DNA from: Sphaerochaeta associata
Lineage (GTDB): Bacteria; Spirochaetota; Spirochaetia; Sphaerochaetales; Sphaerochaetaceae
Direction of reading: 5' to 3'
Assembly (NCBI RefSeq): GCF_022869165.1
Contig: NZ_CP094929.1
Location: 1,612,001 to 1,676,000, forward strand
Length of the DNA stretch: 64,000 nt
In this document: positions 15,337-21,260 of the stretch, in pieces
Layout: each line of letters begins with the position of its first letter
Numbering within the stretch: position 1 is the first letter of the stretch
Notes under the pieces: generated by a model
What the model saw: only the letters and a program-made list of their open reading frames with translations
The model's database searches: none
Told to the model about the DNA's origin: nothing
Made by a program: the position numbers and the translations under genes

Positions 15337-15348
15337 ATGAGGAGTACT

Positions 15349-15720
15349 ATGCATAAACCAACCATATGTGCCATTCGTGGTGCGATTTGTGTAGCAAAGG
15401 ATGAACCGCTATACATAGAAGCTGCCGCCTGCAGGCTCTACAAGGCTATTCTTGAGCAAAACAATCTGGATGAAGAGAATGTCGCGAGTCTTCTGATCAC
15501 CCAAACCAGTGATTTGAAGAGCAGAAATCCAGCAACCGGCCTGAGAAAAGGCGGGTATTGCAGCACCACGCCGTTGTTCTGCATGCAGGAGCTTGAGATT
15601 GAAGGGATGCTGGAGCGCGTCATCCGCATGCTTCTCATCCTCAACTTCCATACAGACAAAACCAAGGCGGTGTTCATGGATGGGGCGGAAAGACTTCGTC
15701 CTGATTTGCAAAAACAATAA
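15349..15720 (+). CDS. aroH: Chorismate mutase, AroH type
   Basis: A 123 aa AroH-class chorismate mutase, converting chorismate to prephenate for phenylalanine and tyrosine. Compared with the B. subtilis enzyme it keeps the early Arg (AIRGAI), the Cys and Glu of LFCMQEL, the Arg of RVIRMLL and the ending AERLRPDL. The Tyr of the HVYLEKA region is Phe (AVFMDGA), and the FPAKAVR loop reads NPATGLR. ATG 15349 lies behind GAGGAG (15339-15344); the ATG at 15337 would place that site inside the gene. It lies 209 bases upstream of the tct-aroA locus. Confidence 0.88.
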   Translation: MHKPTICAIRGAICVAKDEPLYIEAAACRLYKAILEQNNLDEENVASLLITQTSDLKSRNPATGLRKGGYCSTTPLFCMQELEIEGMLERVIRMLLILNFHTDKTKAVFMDGAERLRPDLQKQ

Positions 15721-15929
15721 TTATAGTGTGCTTGGTATTGTATTCAGGTTTTATTTTGTGCATTTAAATGAAAATTTACAGATTGCGATGTAAAAGAAAA
15801 CCTTTTCTATTTGTTTATCCACTATAAAATATATTTCTTTATCTGGTTTTTAACGAATAATTATTGCATAAATACTCAAGAAATTGCATACTAAATGGTA
15901 ATTTACACAATACACTTTAGGAGGCTTCC
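15721..15929. other. AT-rich intergenic region with symmetric elements upstream of tctC
   Basis: This 209-base gap holds no gene. It contains the palindrome CATTTAAATG (15761-15770) and the inverted repeat AGAAAA-CC-TTTTCT (15795-15808), possibly a weak aroH terminator. The octamer ATTGCATA occurs twice, exactly 20 bases apart (15863-15870 and 15883-15890). A possible promoter is TTGCAT (15864-15869), 17 bases, CATACT (15887-15892). The tctC ribosome site TAGGAGG follows at 15918-15924. It is the likely control region of the tct-aroA-lacI operon. Confidence 0.5.
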
Positions 15930-16958
15930 ATGAATCGTCGAATTACCATCGCTCTTATGCTCTTTTGCACCTTTGGATTGTTTGCGGCAGGAGTTGCCGA
16001 GCAAACTTCCCCGGTATATCCACAAAAACCCATCACCATGATTGTTCCATACGGAGCGGGTGGGACGACCGACATCAGTGGAAGGCAGTTGGCCATCCAA
16101 CTGGAAAAGCATCTGGGCAAGAGCATCACGGTGATCAATCAGGGTGGGGCGAGCGGTTCCATCGGGGCACGGACGGTGCTCGATGCAAAAAGCGATGGAT
16201 ATACCGTTCTCTTTACGGCTGAATCATTGGGAACCCAACGTGTCATGGGGCTCAGTGAGATGAGTTATGATGATTTCACCCCCATCATGGTTGCAGTCAA
16301 CGATCCTAAAGTAATTGTTGTCCATAAGGATTCACCCTATCAAACGCTGCAGGATTTGGTAAACGATATCAAGAGCCGTCCCGGCAAGGTGAAAATGTCC
16401 TATACAGGACCTGGTGGTTCTGGGCACGTCCAGGCGCTCATCTACAACAAAATGGGTTTGGACATGGCCTTGACTGCATACCCCGGTGGTGCCGACTGCA
16501 TTGTAGCCGTTCTTGGCAGACAGGTTGAGTTTACCAATTCCAACTACTCAACGGTGACCGGATATTTGGAAAGCGGGGATCTCAAACTGTTGGGAATCTC
16601 TGCACTCCAGAGATTGGAGGCACATCCCGAAGTCCCGACGCTCGATGAGATTCTTCCCGGTTCACAGAAGTATCTGGGCAATCCCTTTACTCCGCTCTCC
16701 TTGCTTGTGAAAGCCGATGTTCCTGCCACTGTTGTCCAGATTCTTCGGGAAGCTGCCTCCAAGGCGGTCCAAGAGCAGGCATGGAAGGACTTTGTTGCGA
16801 AAAACTCATTGGACAAGCTGTATGAGAAGTACCCGGACGAGGCTTCCATGCGCTCCTTCTTCACCGAGTGGGAATCCCTTGTTTCTTGGTTGTTGTATGA
16901 CAACGGAGCTGCAAAAATCAGTCCTGAGAAGTTCGGCATCAAGAAGTTGCATTACTAG
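15930..16958 (+). CDS. TctC-type solute-binding protein of a tripartite tricarboxylate transporter
   Basis: A 342 aa periplasmic binding protein. The signal peptide is residues 1-20 (ending FAAG). The mature part has the family's start YPQKPITMIVPYGAGGTTDISGR, and GGASGSIGA and GPGGSGHVQALIY follow. TctC proteins bind carboxylated small molecules and hand them to the TctAB membrane parts. The ligand cannot be read from the sequence, but coupling to aroA makes an aromatic or cyclic acid a fair guess. The start follows TAGGAGG and the next gene begins 8 bases after the stop. Confidence 0.93.
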   Translation: MNRRITIALMLFCTFGLFAAGVAEQTSPVYPQKPITMIVPYGAGGTTDISGRQLAIQLEKHLGKSITVINQGGASGSIGARTVLDAKSDGYTVLFTAESLGTQRVMGLSEMSYDDFTPIMVAVNDPKVIVVHKDSPYQTLQDLVNDIKSRPGKVKMSYTGPGGSGHVQALIYNKMGLDMALTAYPGGADCIVAVLGRQVEFTNSNYSTVTGYLESGDLKLLGISALQRLEAHPEVPTLDEILPGSQKYLGNPFTPLSLLVKADVPATVVQILREAASKAVQEQAWKDFVAKNSLDKLYEKYPDEASMRSFFTEWESLVSWLLYDNGAAKISPEKFGIKKLHY

Positions 16959-16966
16959 GAGCTCCA

Positions 16967-17410
16967 ATGACCACGCACCACAAGCACAGTATGACATGCT
17001 ATGAGGGCATTGCATTTCTCCTGCTCTCCGTCAGTCTTATCGTGTACTCACTAGTCAATCATGCAGAGGCTCAAGTTGAGTGGAAACAGTCACCGTATCT
17101 GTTTCCACTGTTGATAGCCGTGTTTTTGCTTCCACTCTCCCTGTCTGTGATAAAACAGGGAGCGAAGCAGTGCCCGCAGGAATCGGGGAAGTTTCAAGGA
17201 AAACCAACGCTGGTAATGGTTGCAGCAACCGCTCTTTACATTGCAAGTATGGGCCTGCTTGGATTTTTGGTCAGCACCGCTCTTTTCTTGCTGTTCATCA
17301 TTCGGTATCTGGGAGAGAAACGATGGGTTGTGACCATCAGCATTGCCATCCTTTTTCCTGTGGTGCTGTATCTGCTATTCGCCATGCTTTTGCATGTGAT
17401 GCTGCCATAG
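16967..17410 (+). CDS. TctB-type small membrane subunit
   Basis: A 147 aa protein with four hydrophobic helices, the normal size and topology of TctB. It forms the membrane part of the transporter with TctA. An AGGAG at 16957-16961 precedes ATG 16967. It is 12 bases from tctA. Sequence conservation in this subunit is always low, so the call rests on size, topology and position between tctC and tctA. Confidence 0.88.
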   Translation: MTTHHKHSMTCYEGIAFLLLSVSLIVYSLVNHAEAQVEWKQSPYLFPLLIAVFLLPLSLSVIKQGAKQCPQESGKFQGKPTLVMVAATALYIASMGLLGFLVSTALFLLFIIRYLGEKRWVVTISIAILFPVVLYLLFAMLLHVMLP

Positions 17411-17422
17411 GAGTTCAATGCA

Positions 17423-18910
17423 ATGGTTGATGTGTTGGGAATTCTTTCGTTCGCCTTTGATTTCAGGTTTGTTCTTCTGGTTTTCGTTGGATCGGTCGCC
17501 GGCTTGTTCGTCGGTGCAATCCCCGGTTTATCGGTCTCCATGGCAACGGCCCTGTTGGTCTCCATCACCTATTCGTGGCAGACCACCGATGCGCTTGCCA
17601 CCATCATGGGTGTGTATGTGGTCGGGGTTTTCTCCGGAGCGCTGTCGGCAATCCTGATCAATATCCCAGGAGCCCCTTCATCGGTGGTTACCACCCTCGA
17701 CGGCTTCCCCTTGGCAAAACGCGGGCAGTCATACCAGGCGCTGTCGTACGCCATCATGTACTCATTCATTGGGACATTGTTCGGCTTCATAGCTCTATTG
17801 CTGGTGGCAAAGCCTATTTCATCCCTTGCCTTGCGGTTCACTCCCATGGATTACTTTTTGCTGGCCTTGTTCGGCCTCACAACAGTCGGTTCGCTGACAA
17901 GCAAGCAGTTCTCCAAAGGCTTGATCAGCGCAGCCTTGGGGTTGTTGTTCAGCATGATCGGCATCGACTCGGTCATGGGTACCGCCCGCATGACCTTCGG
18001 AATTCGCAATCTGCAGGCCGGTATCAATATTGTTCCGGCACTGGTGGGTTTGTTTGGGTTTTCCGAAGTGCTGATGAGCCTCTCAGTTTCTCTTGAGGAC
18101 GGGGAAGTAGCCAAAATGTCCAAGACCCCGATACGGCTCAAAGAGTTGCTTCGTCACGCTCCTCTTTCACTCTGGTATGCCACCATCGGCGTTTTTGTCG
18201 GGGCACTGCCCGGGGCCGGAGGCCCGGTGGCCGCCTTCTTGGCCTACAGTCAGGCAAAACGAGTGGTCAAGCATCCATCCGTTCCCTTCGGCGAGGGGGC
18301 GGTTGAGGGTATCGTCGCAAGTGAAACTGCCAATAATGCCTGTATCGGCGGGGCGATGATACCAATGCTTACGTTGGCTATTCCCGGTGATGCCGTAACG
18401 GCGATTATTCTCTCGGTGTTCTATGTGCACGGGTTGCGACCGGGACCCATGTTCATCCAGACCAACAGTGATATGTTCCAGGCGATTCTTGCCGGTGGTT
18501 TTGTGGGAAGCTTCTTCCTGTTGTTGCTGGGCTATCTGGCGGCGCCGAGAATCAGCAAGGTGCTTACCATTCCCAAGAGGGTCCTGCTGCCGTTGGTGAC
18601 CGTTTTGTGCGTCATCGGCTCGTTTGCCGCTAACAACCGGAGCTTCGATGTCCTTTTGATGTTCCTATTCGGAATCCTGGGCTTCTTCATGCGACGTCGT
18701 TCCTACTCGGTGGCTCCGATGACACTTGCCATCGTGCTGGGAGGCATGATGGATTCCAATTTCAGAAGGGCAGTGAGTCTGGCATCCAGTGAAGACAACA
18801 AGCTTCTTGCTCTTTTCGGCCGGCCGATTACCATGATTCTGCTGCTCCTCTTGTTGATAACCCTTGCTACCAACAGCAATCTTTTCAATCGTCGAAGGAA
18901 ATCCAAATGA
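17423..18910 (+). CDS. TctA-type large membrane subunit
   Basis: A 495 aa polytopic protein (about 11-12 helices). Family signatures are GAIPGLSVSMATALLVSITY, the GVYVVGVFSGALSAILINIPGAPSSV segment and the second GALPGAGGPVAAFLAYSQAKR repeat. TctA forms the translocation path and uses an ion gradient. ATG 17423 follows GGAG (17411-17414) at eight bases. The stop overlaps the ATG of aroA by 4 bases, so the enzyme is translationally coupled to the transporter. Confidence 0.94.
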   Translation: MVDVLGILSFAFDFRFVLLVFVGSVAGLFVGAIPGLSVSMATALLVSITYSWQTTDALATIMGVYVVGVFSGALSAILINIPGAPSSVVTTLDGFPLAKRGQSYQALSYAIMYSFIGTLFGFIALLLVAKPISSLALRFTPMDYFLLALFGLTTVGSLTSKQFSKGLISAALGLLFSMIGIDSVMGTARMTFGIRNLQAGINIVPALVGLFGFSEVLMSLSVSLEDGEVAKMSKTPIRLKELLRHAPLSLWYATIGVFVGALPGAGGPVAAFLAYSQAKRVVKHPSVPFGEGAVEGIVASETANNACIGGAMIPMLTLAIPGDAVTAIILSVFYVHGLRPGPMFIQTNSDMFQAILAGGFVGSFFLLLLGYLAAPRISKVLTIPKRVLLPLVTVLCVIGSFAANNRSFDVLLMFLFGILGFFMRRRSYSVAPMTLAIVLGGMMDSNFRRAVSLASSEDNKLLALFGRPITMILLLLLLITLATNSNLFNRRRKSK

Positions 18911-20205
18911 ATGTACATGTCAAACCCGGCTTCTTGAAGGGGAGCCTCCAAGTCCCAGGTTCGAAGAGTCATACCATCCGTTCGGTGCTGCTTGCCACCC
19001 TTGCCGGTGGCAGGACGTGCATAGAGAATCCTCTTGCAAGCGGCGACGGACTGAGTGCCCTGGCAGCAAGCCGTGCCTTTGGGGCGATTGTCAAGGAAGA
19101 AGAGAATCGTTGGGTTGTTCAGGGAAGGGGAGGCATCCTGCAGGTTCCCTCCAATGTGTTGGACACCGGGAACTCGGGGACCACTACCTGTCTGTTTACA
19201 TCGGTGGCCTCCTTGGTGGACGGCTATACGGTAATCACCGGTGATGAACAGATTCGAAGACGGCCCATCATGCCTTTGGTCGACGCATTGAATGCTTTGG
19301 GCGCCACGGCATTTCTTACCAGGGGAGGCCAAGGCTGCCCCCCTGTGGTGGTGAAGGGAGTCCTGCAAGGAGGGACGGTGACCATCGAGGGTAAAAACAG
19401 CCAATATGTCTCAAGTCTGCTGTTGTCCGCCCCTCTGGCGAAGCGTACAACGGTGATACAGGTCGTCAACGCCTTGGAAAAACCGTATGTTCAACTTACG
19501 CTCGATTGGATGAAACGTCTTGGTATAGAGGTGGCAAATCCAGCGGACTATACGCAATTTGTTGTTGAAGGGGGACAGCAGTATCAATCGGGTGATTTTA
19601 CAATACCCTCCGACTGGTCTGCAGTCGCCTTTCCGTTGGTTGCTGCTGCGATTACCCGGTCGGATTTGGTGCTTACCGGTCTGGACTTCTCCGATTCCCA
19701 AGGGGATAAGCGTGTAGTTGATATTCTCGCCCGATTCGGGGCGAATGTGTACAGGCAGAATGAGAGCGAACTGCACATTGTCGGAGGAGAAAGACTGAAG
19801 GGCGGCTTGACCATCGATCTTTCAGACATTCCCGACGCCCTTCCGGCTTTATCCGTTCTTGCGACCCAGGCTGAAGGGCGGACGGTATTTGTCAATTTGG
19901 AGCATGTCAGGCAGAAAGAGACTGACCGGGTGGCCGAAATGACTGCAAAATTGAATTCGCTCGGTTGTTCACTGCACATTGAGCAGGACTCTTTGGTGGT
20001 GGATGGCCCGACTGCTATTCAGGGTGGAATAGTCTCATCTTCAGGCGATCATCGTATTGCGATGGCATTGGTGGCCGCCGGTCTTGCCGCGGAAGGCGAG
20101 GTTGTCATTACTGATGCACAGTGTGCCGATGTCTCTTTTCCGGGATTCTTCTCGAAGTTTGCAGCCTGTGGTGCCGGTCTTTTGATTGAGGAGGCGCAGG
20201 ATTGA
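18907..20205 (+). CDS. aroA: Atypical EPSP synthase-like enolpyruvyl transferase
   Basis: A 432 aa protein with the whole EPSP synthase fold (3-phosphoshikimate plus PEP gives EPSP). Kept features are GSKSHTIR (Lys and Arg of the N-terminal motif), GDEQIRRRP (the Arg before Pro equals E. coli R124), NSQYVSSLLL (Ser-Gln of the shikimate site), the IPDALPAL Asp region, RQKETDR and SSGDHRIAM. The near-universal GTxxR of the first glycine loop reads GTTTCLF, so the Arg (E. coli R100) is missing, and E. coli K411 is replaced in CADVSFPGFF. The gene is coupled to tctA and the LacI gene by 4-base overlaps. It may be a true AroA or a paralogue with another acceptor. Confidence 0.8.
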   Translation: MNVHVKPGFLKGSLQVPGSKSHTIRSVLLATLAGGRTCIENPLASGDGLSALAASRAFGAIVKEEENRWVVQGRGGILQVPSNVLDTGNSGTTTCLFTSVASLVDGYTVITGDEQIRRRPIMPLVDALNALGATAFLTRGGQGCPPVVVKGVLQGGTVTIEGKNSQYVSSLLLSAPLAKRTTVIQVVNALEKPYVQLTLDWMKRLGIEVANPADYTQFVVEGGQQYQSGDFTIPSDWSAVAFPLVAAAITRSDLVLTGLDFSDSQGDKRVVDILARFGANVYRQNESELHIVGGERLKGGLTIDLSDIPDALPALSVLATQAEGRTVFVNLEHVRQKETDRVAEMTAKLNSLGCSLHIEQDSLVVDGPTAIQGGIVSSSGDHRIAMALVAAGLAAEGEVVITDAQCADVSFPGFFSKFAACGAGLLIEEAQD

Positions 20206-21260
20206 ACACGAAGAAAGTAACGATCACCGATGTCGCCAAGGAGGCGGGGCTCTCCATAGCAACCGTCTCCCGGGTTATCAATCATGCACGAAATGTCGAT
20301 CCTGAATCTGAAAAATTAATTCGTCACGCAATGAAAAAGCTAGGATATGTTCCCGCTGTAAAAAAGCAGAAACTCTCGTTGATGGCCTTGATAGTTCCAA
20401 GTCTGGAGAACCACTTTTTTTCGGCGGTTGTCGAAGGCGTGATGAGGGAGGCCAACAAGATGCTTTGTCATGTTGTAGTGTACTCCTCGAATGGAAGCGC
20501 CGAGCAGGAGGCCCAGTGTCTCATGCGTGCCGCCTCCCTTGGTATCTCGGCCCTCCTGTTCTGTCCTCTTTCCGATTCTTCGGCTGCTATGCTTCCAGAT
20601 TTGTTCGACCCGGATTTTCCCCTGGTAATCGTGTATCGGAGAGATTACCTGAAGGGAGCAAGTCATATCTATTACAATAATGTGGAAGGCGGGTACATTG
20701 CAGCCAAGTACCTGCTCAGGGGCAATCATCGGCATATTGCCTTCTTTGCCAGTTTCTGGCAGCAACCCAAAGAGAGTATAGCCGACTTGATCGCGTATCT
20801 CGACCATCCGAACCGCGGCAGCTACTCATCACTGGACCGCCTCGAAGGATACAGGCGGGCTCTGGCGGAATTTTCGCTTCCTCTCGATCAATCGTTGATT
20901 TGCATGACCGGCTATGACTTTCCAAGCGGCTATGCAACAGCGAGGGATTTCCTCTCAAGACTGAGGGATTTCGATGCGATCATTTGCTGCAACGATGCGG
21001 TTGCAGCAGGCGTCCTGCAGGCTCTGGATGAACAGCACATCGCCGTTCCCCAGCAGGTTTCCATTCTTGGATACGACGATTCATTTCTTTCAGAAATTGC
21101 ACGTCCGTCGTTGAGCAGCATTCACCAGGACCCTCAGAAACTGGGAAAGAGGGCGTTTGAGCAACTACAACTCATCCTGGGTGGAAAAAAGTGCGATGAT
21201 ATCATCCTGCAACCGAGTTTGAAAATCCGCAGTTCCTCACGGATGCGTGAACTTGACTGA
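20202..21260 (+). CDS. LacI family transcriptional regulator
   Basis: A 352 aa regulator. The helix-turn-helix and hinge are at about residues 7-60 (TITDVAKEAGLSIATVSRVIN). The sugar-binding-protein-like sensor domain starts near LSLMALIVPSLENHFF and includes DAIICCNDAVAAGVLQAL and SILGYDDS. The start is TTG 20202, overlapping the aroA stop by 4 bases with GAGGAGG just upstream, so it belongs to the tct-aroA operon. It probably controls that operon in response to the imported compound. Most LacI regulators sense sugars; here a cyclitol or hydroxy acid such as quinate or shikimate is conceivable but unproven. Confidence 0.9.
   Translation: MNTKKVTITDVAKEAGLSIATVSRVINHARNVDPESEKLIRHAMKKLGYVPAVKKQKLSLMALIVPSLENHFFSAVVEGVMREANKMLCHVVVYSSNGSAEQEAQCLMRAASLGISALLFCPLSDSSAAMLPDLFDPDFPLVIVYRRDYLKGASHIYYNNVEGGYIAAKYLLRGNHRHIAFFASFWQQPKESIADLIAYLDHPNRGSYSSLDRLEGYRRALAEFSLPLDQSLICMTGYDFPSGYATARDFLSRLRDFDAIICCNDAVAAGVLQALDEQHIAVPQQVSILGYDDSFLSEIARPSLSSIHQDPQKLGKRAFEQLQLILGGKKCDDIILQPSLKIRSSSRMRELD

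Follow-up and report, generated by a model that had tools for sequence, protein, structure and literature searches.

In a 64,000-nucleotide stretch of the Sphaerochaeta associata genome (contig NZ_CP094929.1, positions 1,612,001 to 1,676,000; hereafter the window, whose coordinates are used for its features), the genes of a TctABC carboxylate importer, an AroA-type 5-enolpyruvylshikimate 3-phosphate (EPSP) synthase and a LacI-family regulator form one compact unit, tctC-tctB-tctA-aroA-lacI. We consider it probable that this unit is a LacI-controlled carboxylate-importer and EPSP-synthase operon that was acquired horizontally next to a resident aroH. The larger finding, as judged by sequence comparison, is that the window AroA belongs to a cross-phylum clade of importer-linked AroA proteins that annotation lumps with ordinary AroA. 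All clade members tested exceed the aroA equivalog cut-off, and the clade has thus been hidden by annotation. The window sits in a complete genome of 3.55 Mb, assembled as a single contig. The features of the locus are as follows.

15337 to 15720, plus strand: AroH-type chorismate mutase (CM_1/TIGR01796)
15769 to 15780, no strand assigned: operator-like palindrome TGAAAATTTACA (TGTAAATTTACA in congeners), from a LacI co-occurrence scan
15864 to 15892, plus strand: promoter-like TTGCAT-17-CATACT, read by eye
15897 to 15908, no strand assigned: second operator half-site GGTAATTTACAC, at the expected transcription start, from sequence inspection
15930 to 16958, plus strand: TctC solute-binding protein (PF03401)
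16967 to 17410, plus strand: TctB small membrane subunit (PF07331)
17423 to 18910, plus strand: TctA large membrane subunit (PF01970, 463 bits)
18907 to 20205, plus strand: AroA of the importer-linked clade (TIGR01356, 394.5 bits)
20202 to 21260, plus strand: LacI-family regulator (PF00356 and PF13377), with a TTG start and Shine-Dalgarno sequence GGAGG

Genes in the window were named with Pfam and NCBIfam profiles. An earlier note, made from the sequence alone, had described tctC, tctB, tctA, aroA and lacI as running in one direction with two four-base overlaps, and the open reading frame coordinates and the sequence bear this out: the overlaps are exact, ATGA between tctA and aroA and TTGA between aroA and lacI. 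As in other members of the tripartite tricarboxylate transporter (TTT) family, all three subunits are present at the locus (PF01970, PF07331 and PF03401) in the usual C-B-A order, but here the importer is translationally coupled to aroA. The regulator combines a helix-turn-helix (PF00356) with a sugar-binding-type domain (PF13377). The full gene order is aroH, tctC, tctB, tctA, aroA, lacI, so AroH does lie just upstream, as the note had it; however, the 209-base gap between aroH and tctC has its own promoter- and operator-like sequence, and aroH and tctC are therefore probably not on the same transcript. RNA structure in this gap did not exceed that of shuffled sequences.

Judged by gene content, the window AroA is almost certainly a working EPSP synthase. 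It scores 394.5 bits against TIGR01356 (cut-off 287.25) and 88 against the MurA profile, far below the cut-off of 392.7. Only two genes in the genome match PF00275, the window aroA and one assigned by its sequence to MurA; a second canonical aroA was sought and none exists. The earlier note had named a single aroA with full complementation activity as part of what would refute its reading, and genome-wide the window AroA is the sole AroA besides MurA. It had also called for a search for shikimate kinase, and aroK is found away from the window locus, in one genomic neighborhood with a fused aroDE and aroC. The genome also has aroB and two 3-deoxy-D-arabino-heptulosonate 7-phosphate (DAHP) synthases, one sharing an open frame with prephenate dehydratase. 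Because no EPSP synthase homologue other than AroA and MurA is present and the genome has every other step of the shikimate pathway, it would be AroA that supplies EPSP.

Three genes of the window genome deserve separate mention. The DAHP synthase-prephenate dehydratase frame is 639 residues long (genome C1:43198-44853), and a frame of this size recurs in relatives. A second, unlinked shikimate-dehydrogenase-like gene (locus L010, 4829-5743), possibly a quinate or shikimate dehydrogenase, occurs in the window genome and several congeners. The MurA (locus L002, 1477-2766; genome C1:14693-15922) has PPGGDVIG where Cys115 is usual and is thus an Asp-type MurA, which in other bacteria accompanies fosfomycin insensitivity.

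Aligned with the E. coli enzyme, the window AroA keeps K22, S23, R27, N94, G96, R124, Q171, Y200, D313, K340, E341, R344, H385 and R386, and so retains both the catalytic pair D313/E341 and the phosphoenolpyruvate-binding residues K22, R124, R344 and R386. The earlier note had pointed to the loss of R100 and K411 as a possible sign of a new role. The substitutions are real (Cys and Val, respectively), but they carry no such signal, since they are found across the class, including in AroAs encoded beside aroK, aroC, aroDE or aroH; neofunctionalisation on this ground is rejected. In 140 AroAs from spirochaetes, Clostridia, Planctomycetota, Verrucomicrobiota, Armatimonadota, Omnitrophota, Woesearchaeota and others, collected with patterns favoring one AroA class and so not describing other classes, position 411 of every non-E. 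coli protein is Val or Ile, Glu occupies position 197 throughout, and position 100 holds Tyr in 85 proteins, Arg in 19 and another residue in the rest; among spirochaetes, too, Arg is the exception at position 100. Some of the proteins with Val or Ile at 411, or without Arg at 100, are encoded directly next to one of the four genes just named. The window AroA thus resembles the EPSP synthase family in its equivalog score, its single copy and its complete pathway, and differs from it in Asn169, His336, Ser412, Cys100 and Val411, the last shared with the whole AroA class.

In a maximum-likelihood tree of 58 AroAs, the importer-linked clade is split from all other AroAs with a support of 100/98, and a 124-row tree recovers the same split with a support of 98. 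The clade has three parts: the AroAs of the genus, joined by AroAs linked to TctCBA in metagenome-assembled genomes (MAGs) of Gracilibacteraceae, Thermotogales, Firmicutes and Methylobacteriaceae; a pair from genome G048 and Sediminispirochaeta; and a subclade, AroA2, with members in spirochaetes, Clostridia, Negativicutes and other groups. Outside the genus, the nearest relative comes from a Gracilibacteraceae MAG (L154), where the order is tctC-tctB-tctA-aroA-aroC. The first four of these genes stand in the same order in the window and in Thermotogales (L152) and Methylobacteriaceae (L141) MAGs. For an individual contig, the taxon label of a MAG may be mistaken. Vertical inheritance of the window aroA is not supported by these trees. 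The vertical spirochaete AroA lies outside the clade and is still present in the congener G016, alongside AroA2; most likely, therefore, the window aroA reached the genus by horizontal transfer and took the place of the native gene in most species. We searched the literature for importer-linked aroA, TTT importers with shikimate, Sphaerochaeta aromatic synthesis and shikimate 3-phosphate contact residues, and found nothing relevant in open-access papers, most subscription papers lying outside the search.

In the AroA2 and Tct-linked subclades, almost all members with sufficient flanking sequence have an importer beside aroA, as called by tblastn. The tested importers were near aroA in 0 of 46 loci outside the clade, a result to be read as a contrast and not as an exact frequency, since the importer references were those seen in the clade and some flanks were short. 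In most AroA2 loci the neighbor is a TRAP-TAXI importer, but L115 has TctCBA, L122 an NMT1-type ABC importer together with an AroQ chorismate mutase that overlaps AroA2, L119 a permease of the CitMHS family and L121 a membrane protein of the Gate family; AroQ lies downstream of AroA2 in L111, and the regulators are of the LacI, LysR or IclR type. L123 has no recognized importer, and L150, one of the G048-like pair, is not importer-linked. The TRAP-TAXI/AroA2 loci (e.g., L062 and L118) resemble the window locus in being units of importer, AroA homologue and regulator with an AroA from a sister subclade; they differ in importer family, in having more acceptor-site changes and often a second AroA in the genome, and sometimes in lacking a shikimate pathway. 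The same AroA clade is thus paired with various importer and regulator families in several phyla, and at the level of gene neighborhoods this recurrence gives good support to the earlier suggestion that importer, enzyme and regulator form a functional unit. Two other genes were seen in these neighborhoods: a DUF554 membrane protein beside the AroA2 unit in spirochaetes and Marasmitruncus (L061 4974-5681, L064, L072 and L118 12390-13085), a possible extra partner, and a 483-residue open frame without a Pfam match directly 3' of aroA in G048 (L080 5530-6981).

Some AroA2 proteins occur in genomes apparently devoid of a shikimate pathway. Profile searches of G084 (L111), G093 (L122), G086 (L115) and G098 (L129) found no AroC, AroE or shikimate kinase, and tblastn found no AroB, TrpE or PheA, while all four have RecA, AroA2 and an importer. 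Kinase matches in them were short P-loop scraps only, and in three of the four the only DAHP-family matches were open frames of about 280-300 residues, a size from which we would guess KDO8P synthase. The four are MAGs of unstated completeness, and L111, L122 and L115 are mutually related, but loss of every step in all four through assembly gaps is unlikely. Two more genomes, G029 and G102, also lack pathway steps but show signs of incompleteness. Since AroA2 and an importer occur in the four genomes in the absence of AroB, AroE, AroK and AroC, a role of the AroA2 subclade independent of EPSP is likely, and direct enolpyruvylation of an imported unphosphorylated acid would be our best guess at what fits them. 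AroA2 departs from ordinary AroA at positions 21, 24, 26, 169, 172, 244, 246, 248, 271, 273, 336 and 348, among others, and the genus AroAs carry only part of this set of changes (169, 249, 336, 412 and some others). It is possible, though we lean against it, that the clade arose as enolpyruvyl transferases acting on an imported unphosphorylated ring carboxylate independently of the shikimate pathway, that AroA2 still does so, and that one member was recruited in Sphaerochaeta as the sole EPSP synthase. In L111 (3766-9562) and L122 (2529-8631) a DUF362 protein and an NMT1-type ABC importer accompany AroA2 and an AroQ chorismate mutase overlapping it by four bases, in genomes with no detectable PheA or TrpE.

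Within the genus, the locus has been remodeled. Among 26 genomes, tct, aroA and lacI occur together in 11, aroA and lacI without tct in two (G012 and G015) and aroH beside aroA without tct in nine, while the remaining four have only a vertical AroA or AroA2 or yielded no AroA; in some of the nine the contig stops just past aroA, and lacI may lie beyond. The gene aroH is the constant upstream neighbor of aroA. A site of the TGTAAATTTACA type, within one mismatch, stands once per locus before tctC (before aroA in G012) in 9 of the 11 LacI-bearing loci scanned, against a chance expectation of 0.15 per 64 kb. It was found in none of the LacI-less loci; LacI-bearing L059 has none and L060 has a version one base longer. 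The promoter-like sequence deviates from TTGACA/TATAAT beyond the threshold of our consensus scan, which omitted it, and a very similar promoter lies directly 5' of aroA in congeners without tct. In G015 a 49-residue C-terminal remnant of TctA, 96% identical to that of G021 (E 2.7e-18), persists between promoter and aroA, and lacI is kept; in G012 the importer is cleanly deleted, with operator, promoter and lacI kept. By these comparisons, the genus has seen at least two deletions of the importer, and aroA was retained each time. The importer can thus be dispensed with and aroA cannot, as one would expect of a sole EPSP synthase.

We return to the LacI-controlled importer and EPSP-synthase operon. 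In such an operon, AroA would convert shikimate 3-phosphate to EPSP on the way to chorismate, the substrate of AroH and other enzymes; LacI would bind the TGTAAATTTACA-type sites before tctC and repress the unit until an effector appears; and TctABC would import a carboxylate that belongs to aromatic metabolism and enters upstream of AroA, the likeliest candidates being unphosphorylated ring acids, for example shikimate, quinate or dehydroshikimate. The choice of shikimate or a similar ring acid as ligand is a guess and the weakest step. The closest solved structure to the window TctC is 4x9t, followed by BugD and terephthalate-binding proteins, and this comparison with the nearest solved binding proteins was not informative about the ligand. 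Three observations weigh against this explanation. The clade has Asn169, His336 and Ser412 where ordinary AroAs have Thr or Ser, Gln and Thr, and positions 169 and 336 are described as shikimate 3-phosphate contacts in the structure and UniProt entry of the E. coli enzyme. The four AroA2 genomes without the pathway are hard to reconcile with a simple EPSP role throughout the clade. Finally, a shikimate importer would be expected beside aroK, not aroA, and aroK lies elsewhere in the genome.

The main rival is salvage, in which the importer takes up an aromatic end or side product (an aryl pyruvate, an aryl acid or a prephenate-like acid), LacI co-regulates uptake and synthesis, and AroA is an ordinary EPSP synthase that does not act on the import. 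AroA being the sole EPSP synthase fits this, as do linked enzymes that are downstream ones (AroH in the window, AroC in L154, AroQ in L111, L122 and L139) and TctC relatives annotated as binding aromatic acids such as terephthalate. Salvage leaves unexplained, however, why AroA is the constant partner rather than TrpE, PheA or DAHP synthase, and why AroA2 occurs in pathway-less genomes, and we regard it as rather unlikely. That an ordinary AroA is merely carried along with an unrelated tricarboxylate importer is improbable: the repeated importer losses would suit such an incidental neighborhood, but not the near-universal pairing in the AroA2 and Tct-linked subclades, with several importer and three regulator families against 0 of 46 loci outside, nor the discordant identities in L154 (TctA 43%, AroA 57%), which suggest that the pairing formed more than once. 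Least probable, and very much so, is that the window AroA is no EPSP synthase and uses the imported acid directly as its enolpyruvate acceptor. In favor of this are its place in one clade with AroA2, which is strongly altered on the acceptor side and occurs without a shikimate pathway, its own changes at 169 and 336, and a divergence faster than that of AroC and AroDE (identity between G015 and the window genome is 54% for AroA, 77% for AroC and 78% for AroDE). Against it, the genome would then hold a complete pathway minus EPSP synthase, aroA persists in congeners after loss of the importer, in some overlapping aroH by four bases, and most AroA2-specific changes (21, 26, 172, 244, 271 and 273) are absent from the genus. 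Thus the earlier proposal of a paralogue with a new role is not supported for the window genome, with its one AroA, its otherwise complete pathway and several congeners that kept aroA next to aroH when the importer was lost.

EPSP synthase is the target of glyphosate and among the most studied bacterial enzymes, and a match to aroA is what leads genomes to be annotated as makers of aromatic amino acids. If an importer-tied branch of AroA does extend across phyla, partly in genomes without the pathway, many such annotations would mislead, and a second enolpyruvyl-transfer reaction with a new acceptor would remain to be found. The Sphaerochaeta locus would be a tractable case, with a complete genome, a single AroA and relatives that have naturally lost the importer.

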